64,000 nt of DNA from Streptomyces chrestomyceticus JCM 4735. GTDB taxonomy: Bacteria; Actinomycetota; Actinomycetes; Streptomycetales; Streptomycetaceae. The notes below the pieces were generated by a model. The model was not told where the DNA came from. It made no database searches and saw nothing but the letters and a program-made list of their open reading frames with translations. Of this stretch, positions 599 to 10,854 are shown in pieces (the first letter of the stretch is position 1; every line of letters begins with the position of its first letter). The position numbers were made by a program, and so were the translations under genes. Location of the stretch: NCBI RefSeq assembly GCF_003865135.1, contig NZ_BHZC01000001.1:248001-312000 (forward strand), read 5' to 3'.

Positions 599-1495
599 AT
601 GCAGCAGGTAAGTCGTCCGACGCGGTCCTGCGACGTGGTCGAGGGCTGTCCGGACCCCCGATTACGCCCGGGAGTACTGGGCTATCGGGGGTTCGCCATC
701 TCACTGGACCGGCCCCGCGAGCGACTGGAGATCCCGGCCGGTGTGGTCACTCTCGTACTCGGCTTCGGCAGCACCCTGCACATTCGGGACGCCACCCGCA
801 GGCCGAGGTGCACCGGTACGGGCAGGCCGGAAATGTTCACCTCGCTGCTCGCCGGGCTGTCGACCCGGGCGCGCGTCGGTATGCACGACGGCGAGCTGTC
901 CGGGGTGGAGGTGCTGCTCGAACCCTGGGCCGCGTACTCCCTCTTCGGCGTCGCCATGCACGAACTGGTCGACACCCTTCTCCCGCCGGACGCGGTACTC
1001 GGCCCGCAGGTCGACGACCTGATCGCGGCCCTCGTCGCCTCGCCGGACTGGCCCGAGCGTTTCGCCCTGCTCGACTCGGTCCTGGCCTGCCGAGCCGCCC
1101 TCGGGCCGGCGAGTTCGCCCCGGCTGGTGTGGGCCTGGCGCGAGCTGCGGCGTACCGGCGGCATGGTGCCCATCCACGCGCTGGCCGAGCAGAGCGGCTG
1201 GTGCTGGCGCCAGTTGGACAGCCGTTTCCGGCAACAGATCGGCCTGACGCCGAAGCAGGCGGCCCGCGTCCTGCGGCTGCGGCGGGCCCTGGGGCTCCTC
1301 GCCCAGGGCCGGCGGCCGGCCCGCACCGCCGCGATGTGCGGTTTCAGCGACCAGGCCCACCTGAGCCGGGAGATCAAGACGATGACCGGCCGCACACCGC
1401 GCGAATTCCTCGCCGCGCGGTGTGCCTCGGCCGCCCGCCCGATGTCCGGTGACCGGATTTCCGGGGAGGTCACCTCCCTCGTCCTCAGAAGCTGA
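599..1495 (+). CDS. AraC-family transcriptional regulator
   Basis: A 298-residue protein. The start at 599 is chosen because AAAGGGA precedes it at ribosome-binding distance and the protein-like sequence begins there, although the frame stays open upstream to 215. The N-terminal ~200 residues resemble the sensor half of AraC regulators (YRGFAISLDRP..., a VVTLVLGFG strand). The last ~100 residues carry two helix-turn-helix motifs, including the typical second-HTH segment CGFSDQAHLSREIKTMTGRTP. It stands 160 bp before the Cys-rich peptide gene in the same direction and may control that operon. The 25-bp direct repeats in front of it are candidate operator sites. The ligand is unknown. Confidence 0.85.
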   Translation: MQQVSRPTRSCDVVEGCPDPRLRPGVLGYRGFAISLDRPRERLEIPAGVVTLVLGFGSTLHIRDATRRPRCTGTGRPEMFTSLLAGLSTRARVGMHDGELSGVEVLLEPWAAYSLFGVAMHELVDTLLPPDAVLGPQVDDLIAALVASPDWPERFALLDSVLACRAALGPASSPRLVWAWRELRRTGGMVPIHALAEQSGWCWRQLDSRFRQQIGLTPKQAARVLRLRRALGLLAQGRRPARTAAMCGFSDQAHLSREIKTMTGRTPREFLAARCASAARPMSGDRISGEVTSLVLRS

Positions 1496-1655
1496 CCGTC
1501 GCGGCTCCAGCCCCTGGCTGCCGTCGCGGGCCCGGGGAAGGTGCGAATTTCTTCAAGACCGGGGGATCGCCCAGGCAGCAGTGTGGCCTCCGCAACCGTT
1601 TGGACAGTTCGCACCATCCGCAATGTCCCCAACGTTCGCAACGAAGGAGGTGGCG

Positions 1656-1874
1656 ATGCTCGCATCGATCGAGTCGATGGGAAGCAGACTGCTCGGCCTG
1701 TTCGTGCCCAAGGTGGACGCCGCGGCGGCAGCCGGCGGCATGCAGGCATGCTGGGGCGCCTGCTGGCAGTGCAACAAGCTCTACGGTCACCCGGACGGCC
1801 GGTGCAGTTGCAACGCGCCCTGCTGTGCCGCGGGCGGCAACCGCTACAGGTGCTCCTGCGACCAGTGTCCGTGA
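1656..1874 (+). CDS. Cys-rich precursor-like peptide (72 aa, 10 Cys)
   Basis: The ATG at 1656 follows a strong GAAGGAGG and gives a 72-residue peptide. Residues 1-28 contain an amphipathic/hydrophobic stretch (LLGLFVPKV) and an Ala-rich segment ending AAAAAGG, which looks like a leader. Residues 29-72 form a dense core with ten cysteines at 32, 36, 39, 50, 52, 56, 57, 66, 68 and 71, an even number that allows five disulfides, in CxxxCxxC, CxC, CC and CxCxxC spacings. The genes that follow encode redox proteins, an ABC exporter and a signal peptidase, so the simplest inference is a secreted disulfide-rich peptide (bacteriocin-like, or a small redox-enzyme subunit). I do not recognise the core as a named family. 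The leader is not a classical Sec signal, so the cleavage site (after AxA or after GG) is open. Confidence 0.7.
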   Translation: MLASIESMGSRLLGLFVPKVDAAAAAGGMQACWGACWQCNKLYGHPDGRCSCNAPCCAAGGNRYRCSCDQCP

Positions 1875-1900
1875 CCCCCATTCACCGGGTCAGGGTAAGG

Positions 1901-1952
1901 CGTGGCAGGTCATGGCCGGTCGTGACAGATCACGGCAGGCCGTGGCAGGTCA
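1901..1952. repeat. Three 12-bp direct repeats with exact 20-bp period
   Basis: CGTGGCAGGTCA, CGTGACAGATCA and CGTGGCAGGTCA begin at 1901, 1921 and 1941. The period is exactly 20 bp, about two helical turns, which puts the copies on one face of the DNA. They lie between the Cys-rich peptide gene and the MauE gene. They could be a binding array for the upstream AraC-type regulator driving the processing genes, or a transcript element. The function is inferred only from spacing. Confidence 0.65.
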
Positions 1953-2024
1953 CGCGTCGGAGTGGCCGGTTGAGCGGTTAGGGAACCGGCTGAACTGCGG
2001 GAAAGAGCAGCACCGGTGATCGGG

Positions 2025-2055
2025 CGGGGCCGGGGTACGCGATGCCCCGGCCCCG
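2025..2055 (+). terminator. Attenuator-like hairpin between precursor and maturation genes
   Basis: A perfect 11-bp G/C stem (CGGGGCCGGGG at 2025-2035 pairing with 2045-2055) encloses a 9-nt loop. There is no U-tract. Hairpins after a small precursor gene often cut read-through so that precursor exceeds its processing enzymes; this is the proposed role here. Confidence 0.5.
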
Positions 2056-2107
2056 TCCGGCCCGGCACCGTCCCTCGAACCTTTCGACAGCCCGAAAGGG
2101 AGTCTTC

Positions 2108-2680
2108 GTGCTGTACGTGGCCATAGGCATGCGCTGCCTGCTCGGCATCGTGTTCCTGGTCTCGTCCCTGAGCAAGACCGCGGGACGGGGCCGCTTCTCC
2201 GCCTTCGCCGCTTCCGTACGCGCCATGGACGTCGTCCCCGCGGGCCACGTACGTACGGTGGCCGCAGCCGTGGTCGCGGCCGAGTACGCCGCCTGGATGC
2301 TCCTCGTGCCGGCCCCTGCTCCCGGATTCGCGCTGGCGGGCGGACTGCTCGTCGCGTTCACCGCGGCCATCGCCGGGGCGCTGCGCCGTGGTGTGTACGC
2401 GCCCTGCCAGTGCTTCGGTACGTCTGCCCGACCGCTCGGGCGTGGGCACGTACTGCGGAACGCGCTGCTGGCACTCGGAGCGGCGGTGGGCGCGACGGCC
2501 GAGCTGCTGCCCGCCGCCGCTGGCTCTCCCCAGCCGGCCGGGGTGGCGGCAGCGGTACTCGTGGGGATGTGCGCGGCCGGTGTCCTCGTCCTGCTCGACG
2601 ACCTCCTCGAACTCTTCCGGCCGCTCCGAACCGGCCGCCCCCGCGAACCGCGTCGCGCCGCCCGGCTACCCGTGCGGTGA
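2108..2680 (+). CDS. MauE/DoxX-family redox-associated membrane protein
   Basis: A 190-residue membrane protein started at GTG 2108, six bases after GAAAGGGAG; the longer frame to 2042 lacks a better site. It has about four hydrophobic segments and the MauE signature region YAPCQCFG with the CxC pair after the second membrane segment. MauE is known from methylamine dehydrogenase operons, where with MauD it is needed for the disulfide-rich small subunit. In this operon it most likely passes oxidising or reducing equivalents across the membrane to the adjacent thioredoxin-like protein, for disulfide formation in the Cys-rich peptide. No amine dehydrogenase large subunit is nearby, which argues against a methylamine pathway. 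Confidence 0.85.
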   Translation: MLYVAIGMRCLLGIVFLVSSLSKTAGRGRFSAFAASVRAMDVVPAGHVRTVAAAVVAAEYAAWMLLVPAPAPGFALAGGLLVAFTAAIAGALRRGVYAPCQCFGTSARPLGRGHVLRNALLALGAAVGATAELLPAAAGSPQPAGVAAAVLVGMCAAGVLVLLDDLLELFRPLRTGRPREPRRAARLPVR

Positions 2681-2726
2681 GCCCCGACAGTCCCCACCCA
2701 CAAGACGTGCCAGCCCTGGAGGATCC

Positions 2727-3269
2727 ATGCCGTTCCTGATCGCCGCCGTCGTGCTCGTGGGTCTGCTGTGCGTCCTGGACCTGATCCTCAGCCTGGGAGT
2801 GGTCAAACGGCTGCGGGAACACACCGAGATGCTCAACAACCTCAACGGCCGGGCCTCCATCGGCGCCGGGGAGGAAGTCGGCACGTTCACCGCCGTCACC
2901 GTGGACGGCCTCCCGGTCAGCCGCGACCTGCTGACGGACGAGACGCTGGTGGGCTTCTTCTCCCCCGGCTGCCCGGCCTGCAAGGAGCAGCTTCCCAAGT
3001 TCGTCGAGTTCGCCAGGTCCATGCCGGGCGGACGCGACCGCGTACTGGCCGCGGTCGTCGGTGACGTCCAGCGCACCACCGACATGGTCGCCATGTTGAA
3101 TCCGGTGGCGCATGTGGTGGCCGAGCCGGCTCAGGGCGGCGCCGTGGGCGGAGCGTTCCAGGTCGCCGCCTTCCCGTCCGTACTGAAGGTCGCGGCGAAC
3201 GACAGCGGCCGGCCGGTGGTCACGGCGGCCAGGGTCGATCTGGACCGGCGGCCCTCCCCTGCCGTATGA
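2727..3269 (+). CDS. Membrane-anchored thioredoxin-like protein (MauD/TlpA type)
   Basis: A 180-residue protein from ATG 2727 (CTGGAGG upstream). An N-terminal hydrophobic segment (residues ~3-25) anchors it, followed by an extracytoplasmic thioredoxin fold with the active site SPGCPACKEQLP (CPAC) and a cis-proline region AFPSVLKV. MauD-like proteins work with MauE; the two are adjacent here in the same order as in methylamine dehydrogenase clusters. Its stop overlaps the next start as ATGA at 3266-3269, so the ABC exporter is translationally coupled. It is the probable disulfide-handling partner of the Cys-rich peptide. Confidence 0.85.
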   Translation: MPFLIAAVVLVGLLCVLDLILSLGVVKRLREHTEMLNNLNGRASIGAGEEVGTFTAVTVDGLPVSRDLLTDETLVGFFSPGCPACKEQLPKFVEFARSMPGGRDRVLAAVVGDVQRTTDMVAMLNPVAHVVAEPAQGGAVGGAFQVAAFPSVLKVAANDSGRPVVTAARVDLDRRPSPAV

Positions 3270-5349
3270 GTACGGAAGAACCGGCCGACACGGCACCCCC
3301 GGCACCGTCCGCACCCCCGGCACCGTCCGCACCCCCGGCACCGTCGGCGCCGCCGGAGTCGCGGGAGCCCGGCGAGCGGCTGCGGACCACCAGCCTGCCG
3401 CGCCGGATCACCGCCGCCGCCTCGCTCGCCGCGCGGGCCGCCCCCGGCGCCTTCGCGGCCCACGCGCTGCTGACGCTCGTCACAGGCGCGGCGCCGGTGG
3501 GCACGGCATGGCTGATGAAACTCGTCGTCGACAACCTCGTCCAGCGCGGCCCGCTGAGCACCCTGCTCGGCCTCGCGTCAGGGCTGGCCGCAGTCGGCGT
3601 CGCTACGGCGATGCTCCCCCAGTTCGTCCAGTACCTACGAGGTGAACTGGACCGCAGAGTCGGCTTGTTGACGCAGGACAGGCTGTTCACCGCGACCGGA
3701 TCCTTCATCGGGCTGGGCCGCTTCGAGGACCCGCGTTTCCTCGACCGCCTGCGGCTCGCCCAGCCATCCGTCGGCATGAACCCGAACGATGTCGTGGGCG
3801 GGGTACTGAGCGTGGTGCGCGCCGCCCTCACCTTGACCGGCTTCCTGGGATCGCTCTTCCTGCTGGGCCCGGTCATGGCCGTACTGCTCCTGCTCTCCGG
3901 CCTTTTGGTGCTGGCCGCCGAGATCTCGCTGTCGCGGCGGCGGGCGCGCATGATCTGGGAGGTCGGGCCGGTCGAACGGCGCGAGTTCTTCTACAACGAC
4001 CTGCTGTCCAGTGTGGAAGCGGCGAAGGAGATACGGCTCTTCGGCAGCGGCGGGTTCCTGCGCGCACGGATGCTGACCGAGCGGCGTACCGCCAACGCGG
4101 CCAAGCGGGCGATGGACCGCCGCGACATCACCGTCCAGGCCGGACTGGCGACGCTGGCCGCGGCCGTGTCCGGTGCGGGGCTGGTGTGGGCGGTCGTCGC
4201 GGCCCAGCGCGGGGCGCTGTCGATCGGTGACGTCACCGTTTTCGTGGCAGCAGTCGGCGGTACACAGGGCGCGCTGGCGACGATCGCGGGCGAACTGGCC
4301 CGCTCCCATCAGGCACTGGAACTCTTCGACCACTACCTCGCCGTCACCACCGCCCGCCCCGACCTGCCCGTCGCCGCCGAACCGCGCCCTCTGCCGGCAC
4401 TGCGCCGCGGCATCACCCTGCAGGACGTATGGTTCCGCTACTCCCCCGGCCACCCCTGGGTGCTCCAAGGCGTCACCCTGCACATTCCGCACGGAAAGGC
4501 GCTGGCACTGGTGGGCCTCAACGGCGCCGGGAAGTCCACGCTGGTGAAGCTGCTGTGCCGGTTCTACGATCCGACGCGCGGCGCGATCCTGTGGGACGGG
4601 GTGGACATCCGCGAGGCCGACGCGGCGGAACTGCGGCGACGGATCGGTGCGGTCTTCCAGGACTACATGCACTACGACATGACGGCCGCCGAGAACATCG
4701 CCCTCGGCGACCTCACGGCACTCGACGACACACCGCGCCTGCGAGCGGCCGCCGTACGGGCGGGGATTCACGCCGCGATCAGCAAGCTGCCTCGGGGTAC
4801 GACACGTTGTTGTCGCGGACGTTCTTCATGACGTCGGACTCGGCACCGGAGCCGGGCCCAGGCACGGGTACAGCTCCGCGCTCGGAACCGATCCCAGACA
4901 CGGGTACCAGTACCGGTACCGGCGTCGAATTCTCCGGCGGTCAGCGACAGCGGCTCGCTCTGGCCCGCGCCTTTCTCCGCGACCGCTGCGAACTGATGAT
5001 CCTCGACGAGCCCTCGGCGGGCCTCGACGCCGCGGCGGAGCACGAGATCCACGTCTCCCTGAGGCGCCACCGCCAGGGCCGGACCAGTCTGCTCATCTCC
5101 CACCGCCTGGGCGCGGTACGAGACGCCGATCTCATCGTCGTCCTGTCCGAAGGGCGGATCGTTGAACAAGGCGACCACGCCGCTCTGCTGGCTTCCGGTG
5201 GCGAGTACGCCCGCTTGTTCGCCCTCCAGGCATCCGGCTACCGCGACGAGCTCCAGCCCCCGCCCGTCCCGCTGCACCCGATACCCACCAACATCGACGC
5301 CGACGCCGACACCGCTCCCCTACCCACCCCAACAACAGGAGACCGATGA
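3266..5349 (+). CDS. ABC exporter (TMD-NBD), frame interrupted at a G4 run
   Basis: One ABC half-exporter read in two frames. Frame A (3266-4831) gives a Pro/Ala-rich N-terminus (repeated PSAPPA units), the membrane domain, Walker A (GLNGAGKST) and the Q-loop. Frame B carries GYDTLLSRTFF, the signature FSGGQRQRLALARA, Walker B (LMILDEPSAGLD) and the H-loop (ISHRLG). The frame changes at the G run 4794-4797, where one extra G would give the continuous sequence KLPRGYDTLLSR. Without it, frame A stops at 4829-4831 overlapping an ATG at 4828. A ~30-residue Gly/Thr/Pro-rich insert lies just before the signature motif. There is no C39 peptidase domain, so leader removal would need another enzyme, probably the coupled S26 peptidase. 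Likely an error or a single-base deletion; a genuinely split transporter is less likely. Confidence 0.75.
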
Positions 5350-5873
5350 CCGCCGCCGGACTCCCCCTCCTCGTGCTCGGCACGGCCTCCACGGCCGTGC
5401 TACTGCGCCGCGCACTGGTGTCGGTGACGGTACGCGGTACGAGCATGGAGCCCGCCTACCACGACGGCGACCGGGTCCTGGCGCTGCGCGGCCGCACCCC
5501 GGCCGCAGGGCACGTGGTCGTCCTGGAACGGCCCGGCCCCGGACGCCTGTGGTCGCAGCCGCTGCTGCCGCCGTGGGCAGGAGCCGCCGCGGTGTCCGGC
5601 CGGCACTGGATGATCAAACGTGTGCGCGCGGCGCCCGGTGACGTCCTCACACCCCAGGACGCAGCAGCATTCCCACTGCTGCAACCGGGCCGCGTACCTC
5701 CCGGCAACCTCGTGCTCCTCGGTGACAACCACCGTTGCAGCCTCGATTCCCAGCAGGTGGGCTACTTTCCCACCGCACGCGTGCTCGGCATAGCCCTCCT
5801 CGCCCGGCCAGGACGGGCAGTGACGGCATCGGCAGCGGCCCGAAGCCGCGAAGACTTTCCCCGATGTCCGTAG
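5346..5873 (+). CDS. S26-family signal peptidase
   Basis: A 175-residue protein starting at ATG 5346, overlapping the exporter stop (ATGA), so it belongs to the same operon. After one N-terminal membrane segment comes the catalytic serine box VRGTSMEPAYHDGD, then the lysine box MIKRVRAAPGD, and the C-terminal box LLGDNHRCSLDSQQVGYFP. Ser and Lys of the dyad are both present. It is shorter than housekeeping SPase I and is tied to the exporter and the Cys-rich peptide, so a dedicated leader protease is the natural inference. Its specificity cannot be read from sequence. Confidence 0.85.
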   Translation: MTAAGLPLLVLGTASTAVLLRRALVSVTVRGTSMEPAYHDGDRVLALRGRTPAAGHVVVLERPGPGRLWSQPLLPPWAGAAAVSGRHWMIKRVRAAPGDVLTPQDAAAFPLLQPGRVPPGNLVLLGDNHRCSLDSQQVGYFPTARVLGIALLARPGRAVTASAAARSREDFPRCP

Positions 5874-5925
5874 CCCGGCTCCCGAATGCGATACACCCGC
5901 GGGCACCCACCAAAGCCAGCCAGCC

Positions 5926-6351
5926 TCAGTCTCCGTCGCGCTTACCTTTCCTGCCATCCGTCCGCTTGGTCAGGAAAATGGTGCGCATCGACGGGAGGAT
6001 TCCCCTGCCTCCGTCTCCTGTACGGGTGCCTGCGTTCCCCGTATGGGCAGGCGTGGCGGAACCTCTGCGAGTCTCCTCGGCGGCGACAAGAGCGTACGCA
6101 CGGGCGAGGTCTTTGAGCGCCTTGCAGGATCGCCCCCTGCGTTTGGCCTTCCTGATGGCAGTGGCCTCGCCGGCGATGGCTTCGAGGAGTTTCTTGCGGG
6201 CGGAGGTCGCGGGCGTCCGGGGAGCCGCGGTCACTACGCGGCCTGCTCCGGCCGTCTCGGGCGGACGGCCGACGCCTGCGCCGATGCCGGCGCTTCCGTC
6301 GGCCTGTTCCGTGAGCGGCTTGTCCTTGGGCCCGGTCTTCTTCCTGGTCAT
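5926..6351 (-). CDS. Hypothetical basic protein
   Basis: A 141-residue protein; the ATG at 6351 is preceded by AGGAA at good distance. It is rich in Lys/Arg/Ala/Gly, begins MTRKKTGPKDKP, and has a predicted helical centre (KKLLEAIAGEATAIRKAKR to DLARAYALVAAEE). No signal peptide, membrane segment or known motif was recognised. It is convergent with the S26 peptidase gene. The upstream stretch 6352-6727 (about 375 bp) holds no gene that I can support. Confidence 0.5.
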   Translation of the reverse strand: MTRKKTGPKDKPLTEQADGSAGIGAGVGRPPETAGAGRVVTAAPRTPATSARKKLLEAIAGEATAIRKAKRRGRSCKALKDLARAYALVAAEETRRGSATPAHTGNAGTRTGDGGRGILPSMRTIFLTKRTDGRKGKRDGD

Positions 6352-6727
6352 ACTGGTTCCTGTTCTTTTCACCTGGCGATGCTCGGCCCTGCTGCGGACG
6401 CGGAGGACTGCCCTGGCGGTCAACTACGTCGCCCATTGAGTGACGACTGGTGAGACATCGGCAAAGCCTCCCGCCGATTCAGCGGGCGCCGCCGAGAGAG
6501 AAGCGTCGATTACGGGGAGAAATGCGCGGCAATCCGGTCGGTCACGGTCGCGTCGCCGCGCACCGGACCACGGTTCGGACGCGCTCCCCGTACCTGAGAA
6601 TGCGCTGACGTCACCAGCATTTTCCCCAAGGGCGAGGGCGCTTATGCATCCTTACGCATTCCGCCCCCGCACGAGCCCAACTCACCACGGTGCACCGGCG
6701 CACAGCACCGGGCGCTCGCCCCGGAGT

Positions 6728-7147
6728 TCACCCCCCGGAGCGCTCACGCAGGCGCAGAATTCCCAAAGCGATGAGGCCGAGGACCGCACCCTCAAGGGCG
6801 TTGAAGACCAGGATGCCGATCATGCCGGGCATCGGAGGCACCTCGGCGCTGTCCATGAAGAGGTTCAGGGTCAGGTTCAGTACCAGCGCGAAGACGCCGT
6901 AGGCCACGCCGGCCAGCGTCAGCACCTCCACCGGCTTGTCGACGCGCAGAAGTACGGCCGCGGCGAGCCACACCACCGCGATCAGCGCGGTGAACAGTAC
7001 GGGCCCCACGGGCTTCTCCAGCGGGCCGGACTCGTAGACGCCGAGGACGCTCAGTACGGGACGGATCAGCGCCCCGGCTCCCAGCGTGACGATCAGGGCC
7101 CAGGGCATGGCGCGCAGTGCGCCACCTCGTGCATGTGTCACGGACAT
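6728..7147 (-). CDS. Small integral membrane protein
   Basis: A 139-residue protein with ATG at 7147 after AGGAG. It has four hydrophobic segments (WALIVTLGAGALIRPVLSVLG, FTALIAVVWLAAAVLL, GVAYGVFALVLNLTL, IGILVFNALEGAVLGLIALGIL). No catalytic motif is visible. It is divergent from the PadR gene at 7327, so the repeats in between may regulate it. Function unknown. Confidence 0.7.
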   Translation of the reverse strand: MSVTHARGGALRAMPWALIVTLGAGALIRPVLSVLGVYESGPLEKPVGPVLFTALIAVVWLAAAVLLRVDKPVEVLTLAGVAYGVFALVLNLTLNLFMDSAEVPPMPGMIGILVFNALEGAVLGLIALGILRLRERSGG

Positions 7148-7659: not shown

Positions 7660-7725
7660 ACACCCCTTAGCTGGAGGGTGGTTGATGCCAGGGCGGGTCG
7701 GCCGCGTCCCCTGTACGCAGCCACG

Positions 7726-8367
7726 TCAGGCCGCGCGCAGGCAGCGCCGTCCTGAAGCACCTATACCGGCCAGCGGCAGACCCAGCAACACCAGCGTGCC
7801 CGGCAGCCCGACGGGGCTCAGCAGCATGCCAGGAGACGTGCTCAACCACGTCAGGAGCACGCCCAGAACGCTGAAGACGGCACAGACCGCAAAGGCGAAC
7901 AGCCCGGTCAGCCGCGCGACTTGACGCCGTACGCCGAGGAACCGCACCCCGCTCCCGGTGGCGAGCACGGCAGCCAGCCCGAGCACGATCGCACCTCCGC
8001 CGGCCCAGCGGACCACCACGTCCACCGCGAGGTATCCGGGGTCCGCCCGGCCGATGGAGAGACCGGTCGCGAGATGCCCCAGCGCCCACCAGGCGACCGG
8101 CTGGACGAGCATGACGACGCAGATCAGCAGCGCGGTGCGCCGCCCCTGGGACAGACCCAGTTCAGCCTGGTATCCGGGAGCGATGACCGGCACCGGTCCG
8201 AAGTCCCGGACGGCTTGGCGCTCCGCGCTCGTCCGGTCCAGGCCCGCCGCCTCGTACGCCTCTGCGGCGTCGGTCAGCCCGTCCCGTACCTCGGTCAGCA
8301 GATCTGCCTTGGCCGCACGTGGCCCGGCCAGGGCCTTGTCGAGTTCTGCGACATAGTGGTCGATCAC
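7726..8367 (-). CDS. Permease-prefix-domain membrane protein
   Basis: A 213-residue protein; GTG 8367 is chosen as start (VIDHYVAELDKALAGP), with a TATACT hexamer further upstream at 8420-8415. Residues 1-70 are the cytosolic helical permease-prefix domain (LLTEVRDGLTDAAEAYEAAG, AVRDFG). Four hydrophobic segments follow. Such proteins commonly accompany PadR regulators, and the PadR gene lies directly opposite. The biochemical role is not known. Confidence 0.8.
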   Translation of the reverse strand: MIDHYVAELDKALAGPRAAKADLLTEVRDGLTDAAEAYEAAGLDRTSAERQAVRDFGPVPVIAPGYQAELGLSQGRRTALLICVVMLVQPVAWWALGHLATGLSIGRADPGYLAVDVVVRWAGGGAIVLGLAAVLATGSGVRFLGVRRQVARLTGLFAFAVCAVFSVLGVLLTWLSTSPGMLLSPVGLPGTLVLLGLPLAGIGASGRRCLRAA

Positions 8368-8453
8368 TCGTCCCCCCCCCGTGTCCGCCTTCTCGCCGGC
8401 GTCCCGCACCGGCCAGTATAGGGAGCGCCGGGTACGCAGCTGATGCGCAAGAA

Positions 8454-8505
8454 GGCCCGCCGGCCGCGCTTTCCCGGAAAACCGAGATCACGCGGCCGGC
8501 GGGCC
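8454..8505 (-). terminator. Terminator hairpin after the BCCT gene
   Basis: A perfect 15-bp inverted repeat (GGCCCGCCGGCCGCG at 8454-8468 pairing with 8491-8505) separated by 22 nt. It lies 51 bp beyond the stop of the leftward BCCT transporter gene. Confidence 0.7.
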
Positions 8506-8555
8506 CTGATCGGCAAGCGGCCCCGCAACGGCCGGCGGGAAACTTGCCCGCAAGC

Positions 8556-10343
8556 TCAGCCCTGCGACTCCTGCGGCCCCGCCACCGCCGATGACTGGGG
8601 CTCCGGAACCACCGCTGACGAGGGCTCCGGGGCCGCCGATGACTGGGGTTCCGGAACCACCGCTGACGAGGGCTCCGGGACCGCCGATGACTGGGGTTCC
8701 GGACCGGTGACCGGCGGCTCCCTCAGCACGATCCCCTGCTCCAGAGCCATCTCCTTGGCGACCCGCGGAGCGGTCCAAAGAGTCGGCAGCATGATGAAAC
8801 CGACAGGCACCGCCGTCACGACGATGAATGACTGCAGCGCGGTGATGCCGCCGTCCCCGACGAGGATCAGTACGGCCGCCGCGGCCCCCATGAGCAGGGC
8901 CCAGAAGGCACGTACCGCACGGGTGGGCTCGCCGGTCTTCGTGCCGGCGGCAGCGATGCTGTACGACATCGAGTCGGTGGTGGTCACCACGAAGGTGATG
9001 GTCAGCAGGAGCAGCGCCACCGCGACCACGGCACCCATCGGGAGCCGTTCGGCCATGGAGATGACCGCGGCGTCCATCCCGACGGCCTTGAGCGGGCCGG
9101 AGATGGTCCCGGGGTTCTGCTGTTCGAGGAAGATGCCGGTGCCGCCGAAGACGGTGAACCAGAACATGGTCGCCAGCGGCGGAATGATCGCGGTGGAGAC
9201 GACGAGGTCACGTACCGTACGGCCCTTGGAGATGCGTGCCACGAAGATCGACATCAGGGGCCCGTAGCCCAGGAACCAGCCGAAGAAGAAGACCGTCCAG
9301 GAACCCAGCCACGCGTGATCGCCCCGGTTGAGGGCCAGCGGCACGAAGTCCTTCGCGTACTGGCCGAGCCCGCCGAGGAAGGAGTCGAGCACGAAACCGA
9401 GGGAGCCGAGTACGAGGAAGACGGCCATCAGGGCGACGGCCAGCCAGATGTTGGCCCTGCTGAAGAACTGGATGCCGCGGTCGATGCCACTGGCGACGGA
9501 CAGCACGGCGACGACGGTCAGCAGGACGATCACGCCGAGTTGTACGGGGTATCCGCCGGAGATGCCGAACACCTGGGAGAGGCCGTAGGAGACCTGAAGG
9601 CCGAGGAAACCGATCGGCCCGACGGTGCCGGCCACCACGGCGATGACGCAGACGATGTCGACGGCGGCGCCCAACCGGGAGTGCCTGATGCGCTCACCGA
9701 GCAACGGGTACAACAGCGTCCTCGGACGCAGCGGCATGCCGCGCTCCTGGCCCCGGATCATCACGATCGAGGCGAGGGTCCCCAGGACGGCCCAGGCGAG
9801 GAAGCCCCAGTGCGCGAAGCTCTGGGAGAGCGCCGCGTCGGCCGCCTGCTGCGTTCCGCTCTTGACTCCCTCGTAGTACGGAGGCGTCTCGACGTAGTGC
9901 TGTACGGGCTCGCCCGCCGCGAAGAAGACTCCGCCGCCCGCGAGCAGCGTCGACATGATCATCGCGACCCACTGGAACCTGCCGTACTCCGGGCGCGCCC
10001 CGGCGCCGCCCAGCCGCACCTTCCCGTACCGGGAGAATCCCAGCCACAGCGCGACACCGAACGTCGCCAGCAGCAGCACCTGCCACAGCGGACCGAACCA
10101 GCGCGCGACGAAGGTGAAGACCGCGTTGACGGCGTCACCCGTGGCCGTGGGCGCGATCAGCGCGGCCAGGACGAATGCGGTGAGCAGCCCGCCACTGACA
10201 GCGAGGACGGGTATGTCGGTGCGCCTGGGCTCTCTGGACGGCGGCGCGGCCGTCGTATGGCACGCGTCGTCACCGTCCGTGGTCGATTCCGTCCCGGTGG
10301 GGACGGCCGCGCTGGTGGCGGTCGGGGCGTGGGGAGTCGGCAT
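8556..10343 (-). CDS. BCCT-family betaine/choline/carnitine-type transporter
   Basis: A 595-residue transporter; ATG 10343 follows AAGGAA. It has about twelve membrane segments, and the family signature is visible as FFFGWFLGYGPLMSIFVARISKGRTVRDLV. BCCT proteins take up compatible solutes using Na+ or H+ gradients. The N-terminal ~50 and C-terminal ~50 residues are hydrophilic. The C-terminus is a Pro/Glu/Ser tandem repeat (PEPQSSA units) encoded by a 48-bp DNA repeat. It stands alone between convergent genes; substrate cannot be assigned. Confidence 0.9.
   Translation of the reverse strand: MPTPHAPTATSAAVPTGTESTTDGDDACHTTAAPPSREPRRTDIPVLAVSGGLLTAFVLAALIAPTATGDAVNAVFTFVARWFGPLWQVLLLATFGVALWLGFSRYGKVRLGGAGARPEYGRFQWVAMIMSTLLAGGGVFFAAGEPVQHYVETPPYYEGVKSGTQQAADAALSQSFAHWGFLAWAVLGTLASIVMIRGQERGMPLRPRTLLYPLLGERIRHSRLGAAVDIVCVIAVVAGTVGPIGFLGLQVSYGLSQVFGISGGYPVQLGVIVLLTVVAVLSVASGIDRGIQFFSRANIWLAVALMAVFLVLGSLGFVLDSFLGGLGQYAKDFVPLALNRGDHAWLGSWTVFFFGWFLGYGPLMSIFVARISKGRTVRDLVVSTAIIPPLATMFWFTVFGGTGIFLEQQNPGTISGPLKAVGMDAAVISMAERLPMGAVVAVALLLLTITFVVTTTDSMSYSIAAAGTKTGEPTRAVRAFWALLMGAAAAVLILVGDGGITALQSFIVVTAVPVGFIMLPTLWTAPRVAKEMALEQGIVLREPPVTGPEPQSSAVPEPSSAVVPEPQSSAAPEPSSAVVPEPQSSAVAGPQESQG
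8590..8703. repeat. 48-bp tandem repeat, 2.4 copies, inside the BCCT gene
   Basis: Copies start at 8590, 8638 and 8686 with a few mismatches. They encode a 16-residue repeat of PEPQSSA/PEPSSAVV type at the cytosolic C-terminus. The length is a multiple of three, so copy changes would keep the frame. Confidence 0.85.
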
Positions 10344-10854
10344 GAGGTTCCTTGCTGGCGGGGTCATTCGCACACGGGGGCATGACGCACCGCAAGGACG
10401 CACGCGCTCACGAGACGCAGGACCGCTCGGTGCGCGGGTCAACAGGGAAGGCTGCTATCCATGAGGTGATGCGGTCAAATTCGGGACAGCCGCCCCAAAC
10501 GTGCCGATGCCCTGGTGACGGGGGTTTTCGCGTCCGGTGGGGTGCCGTGGTTGACGAAGATCACTCTTGGGCTGTCTGACGCGTACGGACGGGGACGTGA
10601 GGCGCGTCACGTGGCCTTGGTCACCTACCCCCGACAAGGCGGCACGCCCCCTACACCTTGCCCTCCACGGCCCCGGGCCCCACACCACGAAAGGCTCGCA
10701 CAGCGCCCGGATGCCACTGCCCCCGATCCGACGGCAGCACTTCTACCGACCACCCTGACCGCCCATGTGATCCGGGCACATCGCATCATGGCCCGTCTCC
10801 GCGATTTCCCGGCCGGCCACCACCCGGGCGTTCAGGCCCTGCACCCACCAGTTG
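10344..10854. other. Intergenic region without supported gene
   Basis: About 510 bp between the BCCT gene and the next leftward small gene. Short open frames exist on both strands but none has a protein-like composition with a start and ribosome-binding site. I see no strong hairpin or repeat. Confidence 0.5.

Follow-up and report, generated by a model that had tools for sequence, protein, structure and literature searches.

The window examined here is a 64,000-nucleotide stretch of the Streptomyces chrestomyceticus JCM 4735 genome (contig NZ_BHZC01000001.1, positions 248,001 to 312,000), and near its start lies an open reading frame (ORF; 1656-1874, plus strand) for a 72-residue peptide with ten cysteines. 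Downstream of it follow genes for a MauE-type membrane protein, a TlpA/MauD-like thioredoxin with a CPAC motif, an ATP-binding cassette (ABC) exporter and an S26 signal-peptidase-like protease (Table 1). A sequence-only reading of this DNA had described these genes as a possible undescribed maturation and export system for the peptide. The peptide ORF with its leader was confirmed by an upstream AAGGAGG site and by homologs with a conserved leader; the MauE-type protein and the S26 peptidase were confirmed by Pfam, and the CPAC thioredoxin was found in place, with Redoxin and Thioredoxin matches that are weak and below the curated cut-offs. The ATGA overlaps reported to link the last three genes are present at 3266-3269 and 5346-5349. 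We consider it probable (about 0.77) that the five parts work together as a cassette for producing and secreting a disulfide-rich peptide. This reading builds on a constant leader, variable cores with even cysteine numbers, the constant company of MauE, TlpA, ABC and S26 genes, and conserved active-site motifs, all of them read from sequence.

Leader, core and cassette across genomes

The related peptides combine a rigid leader of 24 residues with the pattern M-x10-LL-xx-[FL]VP-xxx-A-x-A and a hypervariable, cysteine-rich core. Such a pairing of conserved leader and variable core within one short ORF is characteristic of ribosomally synthesized and post-translationally modified peptides (RiPPs). 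In a profile of 81 leaders, one per distinct core, the commonest residues are G9, L12, L13, V17, P18, A22 and A24, and 80 of the leaders lack cysteine. Counted over all 82 distinct leaders, P18 is found in 68 and the combination of A22 and A24 in 70. The start codon stands exactly 11 residues ahead of the LL-type pair in 29/29 peptides of a first set (in which one locus is duplicated and one genome contributes two copies) and in 29/33 of a second, under a start-choice rule that favoured such a codon wherever it was present. Upstream stretches of the relatives mostly carry purine-rich sites similar to AAGGAGG. From leader position 24 to the first cysteine there are 0 to 11 residues, and core length and cysteine pattern vary between subgroups. 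Tandem peptide genes, two or three neighbours with related leaders and diverging cores, were found at L102, L105, L107, L112, L162, L167 and L171. A variant leader without the VP motif, ending REESAEAY or REETAEAY, accompanies the same cassette at L127/L159 and L137/L163.

The sequence-only reading had suggested a profile search for the peptide, and related peptides with the shared leader were found across the genus and the class. A protein search (E up to 1) returned nine related peptides, one near-identical to the query, with source names including Streptomyces, Nocardiopsis and Micromonospora. Profile matches were present in 27/392 genomes of the genus and in 16/394 genomes and 7/137 genera of the class (own genome included in both), with up to four matches in one genome. 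In a phylum sample 4/396 genomes matched, two of which (G904 and G914) looked spurious. These frequencies are minimum values, since earlier searches had overlooked a real phylum-sample match (G013) and scoring was limited to 15 candidates in most genomes. When named genomes were scanned with a pattern requiring CWQC, 3 loci among 20 stretches were confirmed. The peptide is kept together with the cassette, and over the whole peptide the nonsynonymous rate (dN) is below the synonymous rate (dS) in 24 of 26 listed close pairs, which overlap and include duplicates; L097/L098 are equal and L119/L120 reversed. Homologs, leader conservation and synteny rule out a chance ORF.

Genomic context was taken for 57 loci (L036-L063, L094-L120, L004 and L006, with L005 excluded as carrying the same peptide as L004). 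L060 was dropped from the synteny count as it gave no usable peptide call, and L004 and L038 are the same locus. Genes for MauE, TlpA, ABC and S26 proteins lie within 6 kb in 53/56 rows, corresponding to 52/55 distinct peptide loci, so that the co-occurrence of these four genes with short cysteine-rich ORFs, proposed as a check by the sequence-only reading, is the rule, and dedicated processing and export genes stand beside the precursor. Three loci fall short of the full set: L041 has no S26 gene, L046 runs into a contig end and L096 has no ABC gene. Seven gene orders occur among the peptide loci: peptide-MauE-TlpA-ABC-S26, peptide-MauE-S26-TlpA-ABC, peptide-TlpA-ABC-S26-MauE, peptide-TlpA-ABC-MauE-S26, one with a divergent S26 gene first, one with the peptide between ABC and S26 and one with the peptide last.

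The reverse test started from MauE. The Pfam model matched in 121 of 150 genomes of the genus, in 78 of them over the cut-off, and 30 strong-match loci, one per genome, were taken with about 1.5 kb on each side (3.4-kb stretches). A TlpA partner was found in 24 of these and the leader peptide in 21 of the 24; within the same stretches, the leader peptide was found at none of the six MauE loci without TlpA. Eleven of the 21 peptide loci were known from the peptide searches and ten were new. As to the three misses, the peptide lies farther off at L157, the contig ends at L153, and L156 has no recognisable peptide. The L156 cassette occupies approximately 3300-6773 (minus strand), downstream of ORFs that by eye are TetR-like and esterase-like. 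Furthermore, TlpA relatives were found on eleven plasmid records; in the two plasmid copies examined, one cassette lies amid insertion sequence and group II intron genes and the other beside an integrase.

Cysteine numbers, active sites and membrane topology

The 86 distinct cores contain 4, 6, 8 or 10 cysteines, apart from one with 7. The count is even in 65 of 66 core clusters (32 with six cysteines, 17 with eight and 13 with ten), and under stricter clustering in 49/50 and 40/41 clusters. In comparison, other short ORFs of the same loci with at least five cysteines have an even count in 11/41 cases; with at least four cysteines the figure is 85/115, a threshold effect as 74 of them have exactly four. 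From these even counts, the simplest reading would be that all core cysteines are paired as disulfides.

Active sites were compared in alignments of up to 73 sequences, comprising 72 loci and the window counted again. The CxC motif of MauE and the CxxC motif of TlpA are present in all 73, the TlpA cis-proline in 72. The catalytic serine of the S26 protein is present in 70/71 sequences and the lysine in 71/71, with two sequences (L060 and L156) failing a stricter S26 motif search. Synteny, invariant redox motifs and even cysteine counts together support the earlier suggestion that a MauE/MauD-like pair has been reused for a disulfide-rich peptide. We propose that the leader would bring the precursor to the membrane cassette, where the TlpA-type thioredoxin would oxidise the core cysteines in pairs and MauE, through its CxC motif, would re-oxidise TlpA and pass the electrons to the membrane. 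The S26 protease would cleave after A-x-A, and the ABC exporter would carry the peptide out. Gene content and cysteine parity are what argues for modification of the product and removal of its leader.

On which side of the membrane these steps might occur was approached through the distribution of charged residues. In 68 of 72 TlpA proteins, lysine plus arginine (K+R) are commoner after the N-terminal membrane span than before it (two fewer, two equal), the positive residues after the span often lying within an RRLRE-like motif. In MauE, the mean number of K+R per loop is 5.5, 0.4, 5.2 and 0.4 for loops 1 to 4, the third containing the CxC motif, and the C-terminal tail carries almost no net charge (3.4 K+R versus 3.2 aspartate plus glutamate). 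A membrane-like span, by a threshold that we set, was detected in 55 of 67 S26 proteins, 12 having no clear span; among the 55, K+R are more numerous after the span in 44, fewer in 6 and equal in 5. Same-genome controls, three ordinary signal peptidases and one lipoprotein-like thioredoxin, have the positives before the span, and a fourth control S26 protein (L186) has no span. By the positive-inside rule, with script-chosen start codons and few controls, the TlpA domain and the CxC loop of MauE would lie on the cytoplasmic face, as would, with less certainty, the S26 domain, and such cytoplasmic active sites suggest that oxidation and clipping precede export. In the resulting inside-out scheme, a quinone-linked MauE-TlpA pair would make all disulfides and S26 would clip the leader in the cytoplasm, after which the ABC protein would release the folded peptide. 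We put this forward tentatively, with the odds somewhat against it; the topology data underlie this scheme and not the main claim. If true, the inner membrane face would house a disulfide factory dedicated to an interchangeable library of cysteine-rich cores, with enzymes forming the disulfides on the cytoplasmic side ahead of export.

The window copy and the nature of the product

Table 1. Features of the cassette locus, with positions counted from the first nucleotide of the window
Feature	Position	Strand	Evidence
AraC-family transcriptional regulator, likely local regulator	602..1495	+	PF12833 E 7.7e-17; directly upstream of the peptide gene
AAGGAGG ribosome-binding site of the peptide gene	1644..1650	+	Read from the sequence
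Peptide leader, 24 residues, A-x-A end	1656..1727	+	Profile over 81 leaders
Cysteine-rich core (10 Cys) and stop	1728..1874	+	Alignments; even Cys count across core clusters
Short tandem repeats within the strongly folding stretch between the peptide gene and mauE	1901..1954	+	TRF; fold z
MauE-type membrane protein, invariant CxC	2108..2680	+	PF07291 E 5.6e-22
Membrane-anchored TlpA/MauD-like thioredoxin, CPAC	2727..3269	+	CxxC and cis-Pro conservation; weak MauD similarity, E 0.046
ABC exporter gene, frame change at about 4.8 kb	3266..5349	+	ORFs 3266-4831 and 4429-5349; ABC_tran split over two frames
S26 signal-peptidase-like protease, Ser33/Lys91 dyad	5346..5873	+	PF10502 E 1e-15

The exporter had been described in the sequence-only reading as lacking a C39 domain. 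This agrees with the Pfam matches of the window's two ABC pieces, which include no C39 family (a scan confined to these pieces and not extended to the ABC proteins of the relatives), while the break in the gene had gone unnoticed. The first ORF (521 residues) ends before the ABC signature motif, and the signature is encoded in the second, in another frame. Walker A and signature share one frame in 66 of 71 ABC rows examined, those without both motifs in one frame being L057, L060, L061, L108 and L063, the last of which is the window itself. Unless a sequencing error accounts for the break, this frame change may have left the window copy inactive. That the locus in S. chrestomyceticus is a decaying pseudogene cluster falls just short of an even chance in our view: apart from the window, 66 of 70 ABC rows keep the motifs in one frame, whereas the remaining genes of the window cassette and their motifs are intact and the break lies close to a G run, a type of site prone to sequencing errors.

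The start of mauE is most likely the GTG at 2108 rather than the ATG at 2042, because relatives and a GGGAG site favour the former. A Pfam MauE search of the own genome gave one match over the cut-off, which is the window mauE, and one weak match below it. The gap between the peptide gene and mauE (1875-2107) folds strongly (z -5.1) and overlaps the local tandem repeats (TGGCAGGTCA-like, 1901-1954). Across 41 loci the mean z of this gap is -2.3, with z < -2 in 21/41 and 15 further loci skipped for gap length; an attenuator was rejected as not specific enough. No promoter or terminator was found in a scan of 1480-2300. The structure model of the window peptide is poor (predicted local distance difference test score 59.9) and had no structural match, and sequence matches are at chance level; these results give a defensin or scorpion-toxin fold no clear support. 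The N-terminus of the ABC protein is rich in proline, alanine and serine and is encoded by a 9/18-bp tandem repeat at 3291-3356, and a 48-bp tandem repeat (8584-8703) lies at the C-terminal end of a large minus-strand ORF (8556-10442).

Several observations weigh against a five-part cassette for a disulfide-rich peptide. The core at L056 has seven cysteines, and in three pairs (L097/L098, L117/L120 and L119/L120) dN exceeds dS in the core. No S26 gene was detected at L041, L170 and L046 (the last cut by a contig end), L096 has no ABC gene in its 19 kb, L156 is a cassette without a recognisable peptide, and at L060 a leader-like ORF has neither MauE nor TlpA beside it. In the window itself the exporter gene is interrupted, the neighbour families listed below could leave out a rare modifying enzyme, and no product has been seen.

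The surroundings of the cassettes were surveyed through 187 genes (87 and 100) lying no more than 1.6 kb from a cassette at the context loci. The 25 Pfam families listed for each set, including all those with at least two members in the first and at least three in the second, are led by regulators: AraC-type HTH_18 occurs in 13/87 and 4/100 genes, and SARP-type BTAD in 4/87 and 17/100. Clustering of the neighbours agrees, as beyond the four cassette genes the large recurrent groups are AraC and SARP regulator types, smaller groups being restricted to subgroups of loci. About a dozen loci have a related AraC gene no more than 1 kb ahead of the peptide. An NCBIfam scan of the first 87 neighbours found AfsR-type regulators and three members of the RiPP-associated HaaT tetratricopeptide repeat (TPR) model, in all likelihood the TPR regulators. 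In the same scan, class A beta-lactamase models matched 2/87 neighbours of the L036-L063 loci. At L041, a gene upstream of the cassette (7706-10786) carries a NACHT N-terminal helical domain (NNH7).

Secretion, activity and chemistry of the peptide are what we infer from the genes; the inference is well supported for chemistry and export, and not for the biological role. Cores are swapped and diversified with the leader and machinery kept, as in bacteriocin and RiPP systems, and on this analogy the product would most likely be an antagonistic or a signalling peptide, controlled by an AraC or SARP regulator. That it serves the producer itself as a signal or in development, and is no antagonist, is less likely than not. 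In favour of this, regulators adjoin the cassette and no neighbour family is frequent enough to be a dedicated immunity gene; against it, hypervariable cores, diversified copies in tandem and a location on plasmids are found more typically in antagonistic systems.

A secreted metal-binding peptide, metallothionein- or metallophore-like, with TlpA and MauE keeping its thiols reduced, would suit a cysteine content of 17.7% in the cores of the cluster representatives and the CxC and CxxC motifs of several cores. It would not lead one to expect the strict evenness over 66 clusters or a cysteine spacing that differs between subgroups, and the leading neighbour regulators are of the AraC and SARP types (metal regulators were not searched by name); we regard it as improbable.

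Less probable still is a small enzyme subunit, as in methylamine dehydrogenase or quinohemoprotein amine dehydrogenase. MauE and MauD-like partners would fit it, and some cores give the impression of resembling the light chain in their cysteine and tryptophan layout. Against it, the neighbour families listed contain no large-subunit family, in line with the earlier statement that no dehydrogenase large subunit is present, and ten diverse peptides had no Pfam match save one weak DurB-like match (E 0.021). The sequence-only reading had named homologs beside an amine dehydrogenase as an outcome that would speak against it; the methylamine dehydrogenase light chain (PF02975) was found in 0/42 match genomes, a weak negative, as it was found in 0/14 control genomes too. 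In these searches, a role in amine dehydrogenase maturation finds no support. The cassette resembles the mau cluster in a MauE protein over the Pfam cut-off and in weak MauD alignments of 4/10 TlpA proteins (best E 1.6e-5). It differs in its ABC exporter and S26 protease, in that no dehydrogenase subunit was found, and in TlpA proteins that lie far below the MauD equivalog cut-off (TIGR02661; best of ten 24.4 bits versus 188.6).

The least probable product is a thioether (lanthionine-type) peptide, to which the leader/core organisation and the DurB-like match would be congenial: evenness would be unexpected for links between cysteine and serine or threonine, and the families listed for the 187 neighbours include neither a lanthionine-synthetase nor a YcaO or radical-SAM family, so that lanthipeptides and YcaO or radical-SAM RiPPs were rejected and the weak match was set aside.

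Related systems and significance

Class II bacteriocins with C39-ABC exporters share with the cassette a short leader of amphipathic pattern, a variable disulfide core and an ABC exporter. The cassette, by contrast, lacks a double-glycine site, shows no C39 family in the window's ABC pieces, and brings its own S26 protease and redox pair. The gamma subunit of quinohemoprotein amine dehydrogenase is a small peptide exported by its own ABC protein, and the S26-type protease of NiSOD removes a short leader, both like the cassette, yet these two systems serve enzyme subunits with other modifications.

Among published candidates, the closest in description are three Streptomyces families with mauE, one also with mauD, and precursors of at least eight cysteines, in the part of the decRiPPter report considered here (PMC7794033, 2020). 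They are three of 42 listed candidates, and that part describes no experiment on them. The decRiPPter filter demanded a transporter, a peptidase and a regulator, and its authors argue for RiPP modification, other mau orthologs being absent (PMC7794033). With mauE and mauD-like genes and ten cysteines the window fits this description at the level of gene content and cysteine number; unlike the cassette, the families are presented in the main text without mention of S26, thioredoxin or TlpA (PMC7794033). The word undescribed in the sequence-only reading therefore holds in part: mauE/mauD candidate families had already been listed, as untested candidates. The actifensins of Actinomyces (PMC6989792) are likewise actinobacterial, disulfide-rich, defensin-like bacteriocins with a leader and diverse cores, in some operons in several copies and with ABC genes nearby; the portion of that report considered names no MauE, TlpA or S26 for them. 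A search of the open-access literature, which covers few subscription journals, gave no experimental study of the cassette.

We regard the cassette as real and recurrent, a system for disulfide-rich peptides that occurs in many actinobacterial genomes and has hardly been noticed. MauE and MauD-like proteins, whose role has so far been vague, would gain a small testable substrate, and the hypervariable cores are attractive as antimicrobials or scaffolds. Moreover, the leader together with MauE, TlpA, ABC and S26 genes provides a sequence handle for a large and barely explored reservoir of disulfide-rich peptides in actinobacteria.

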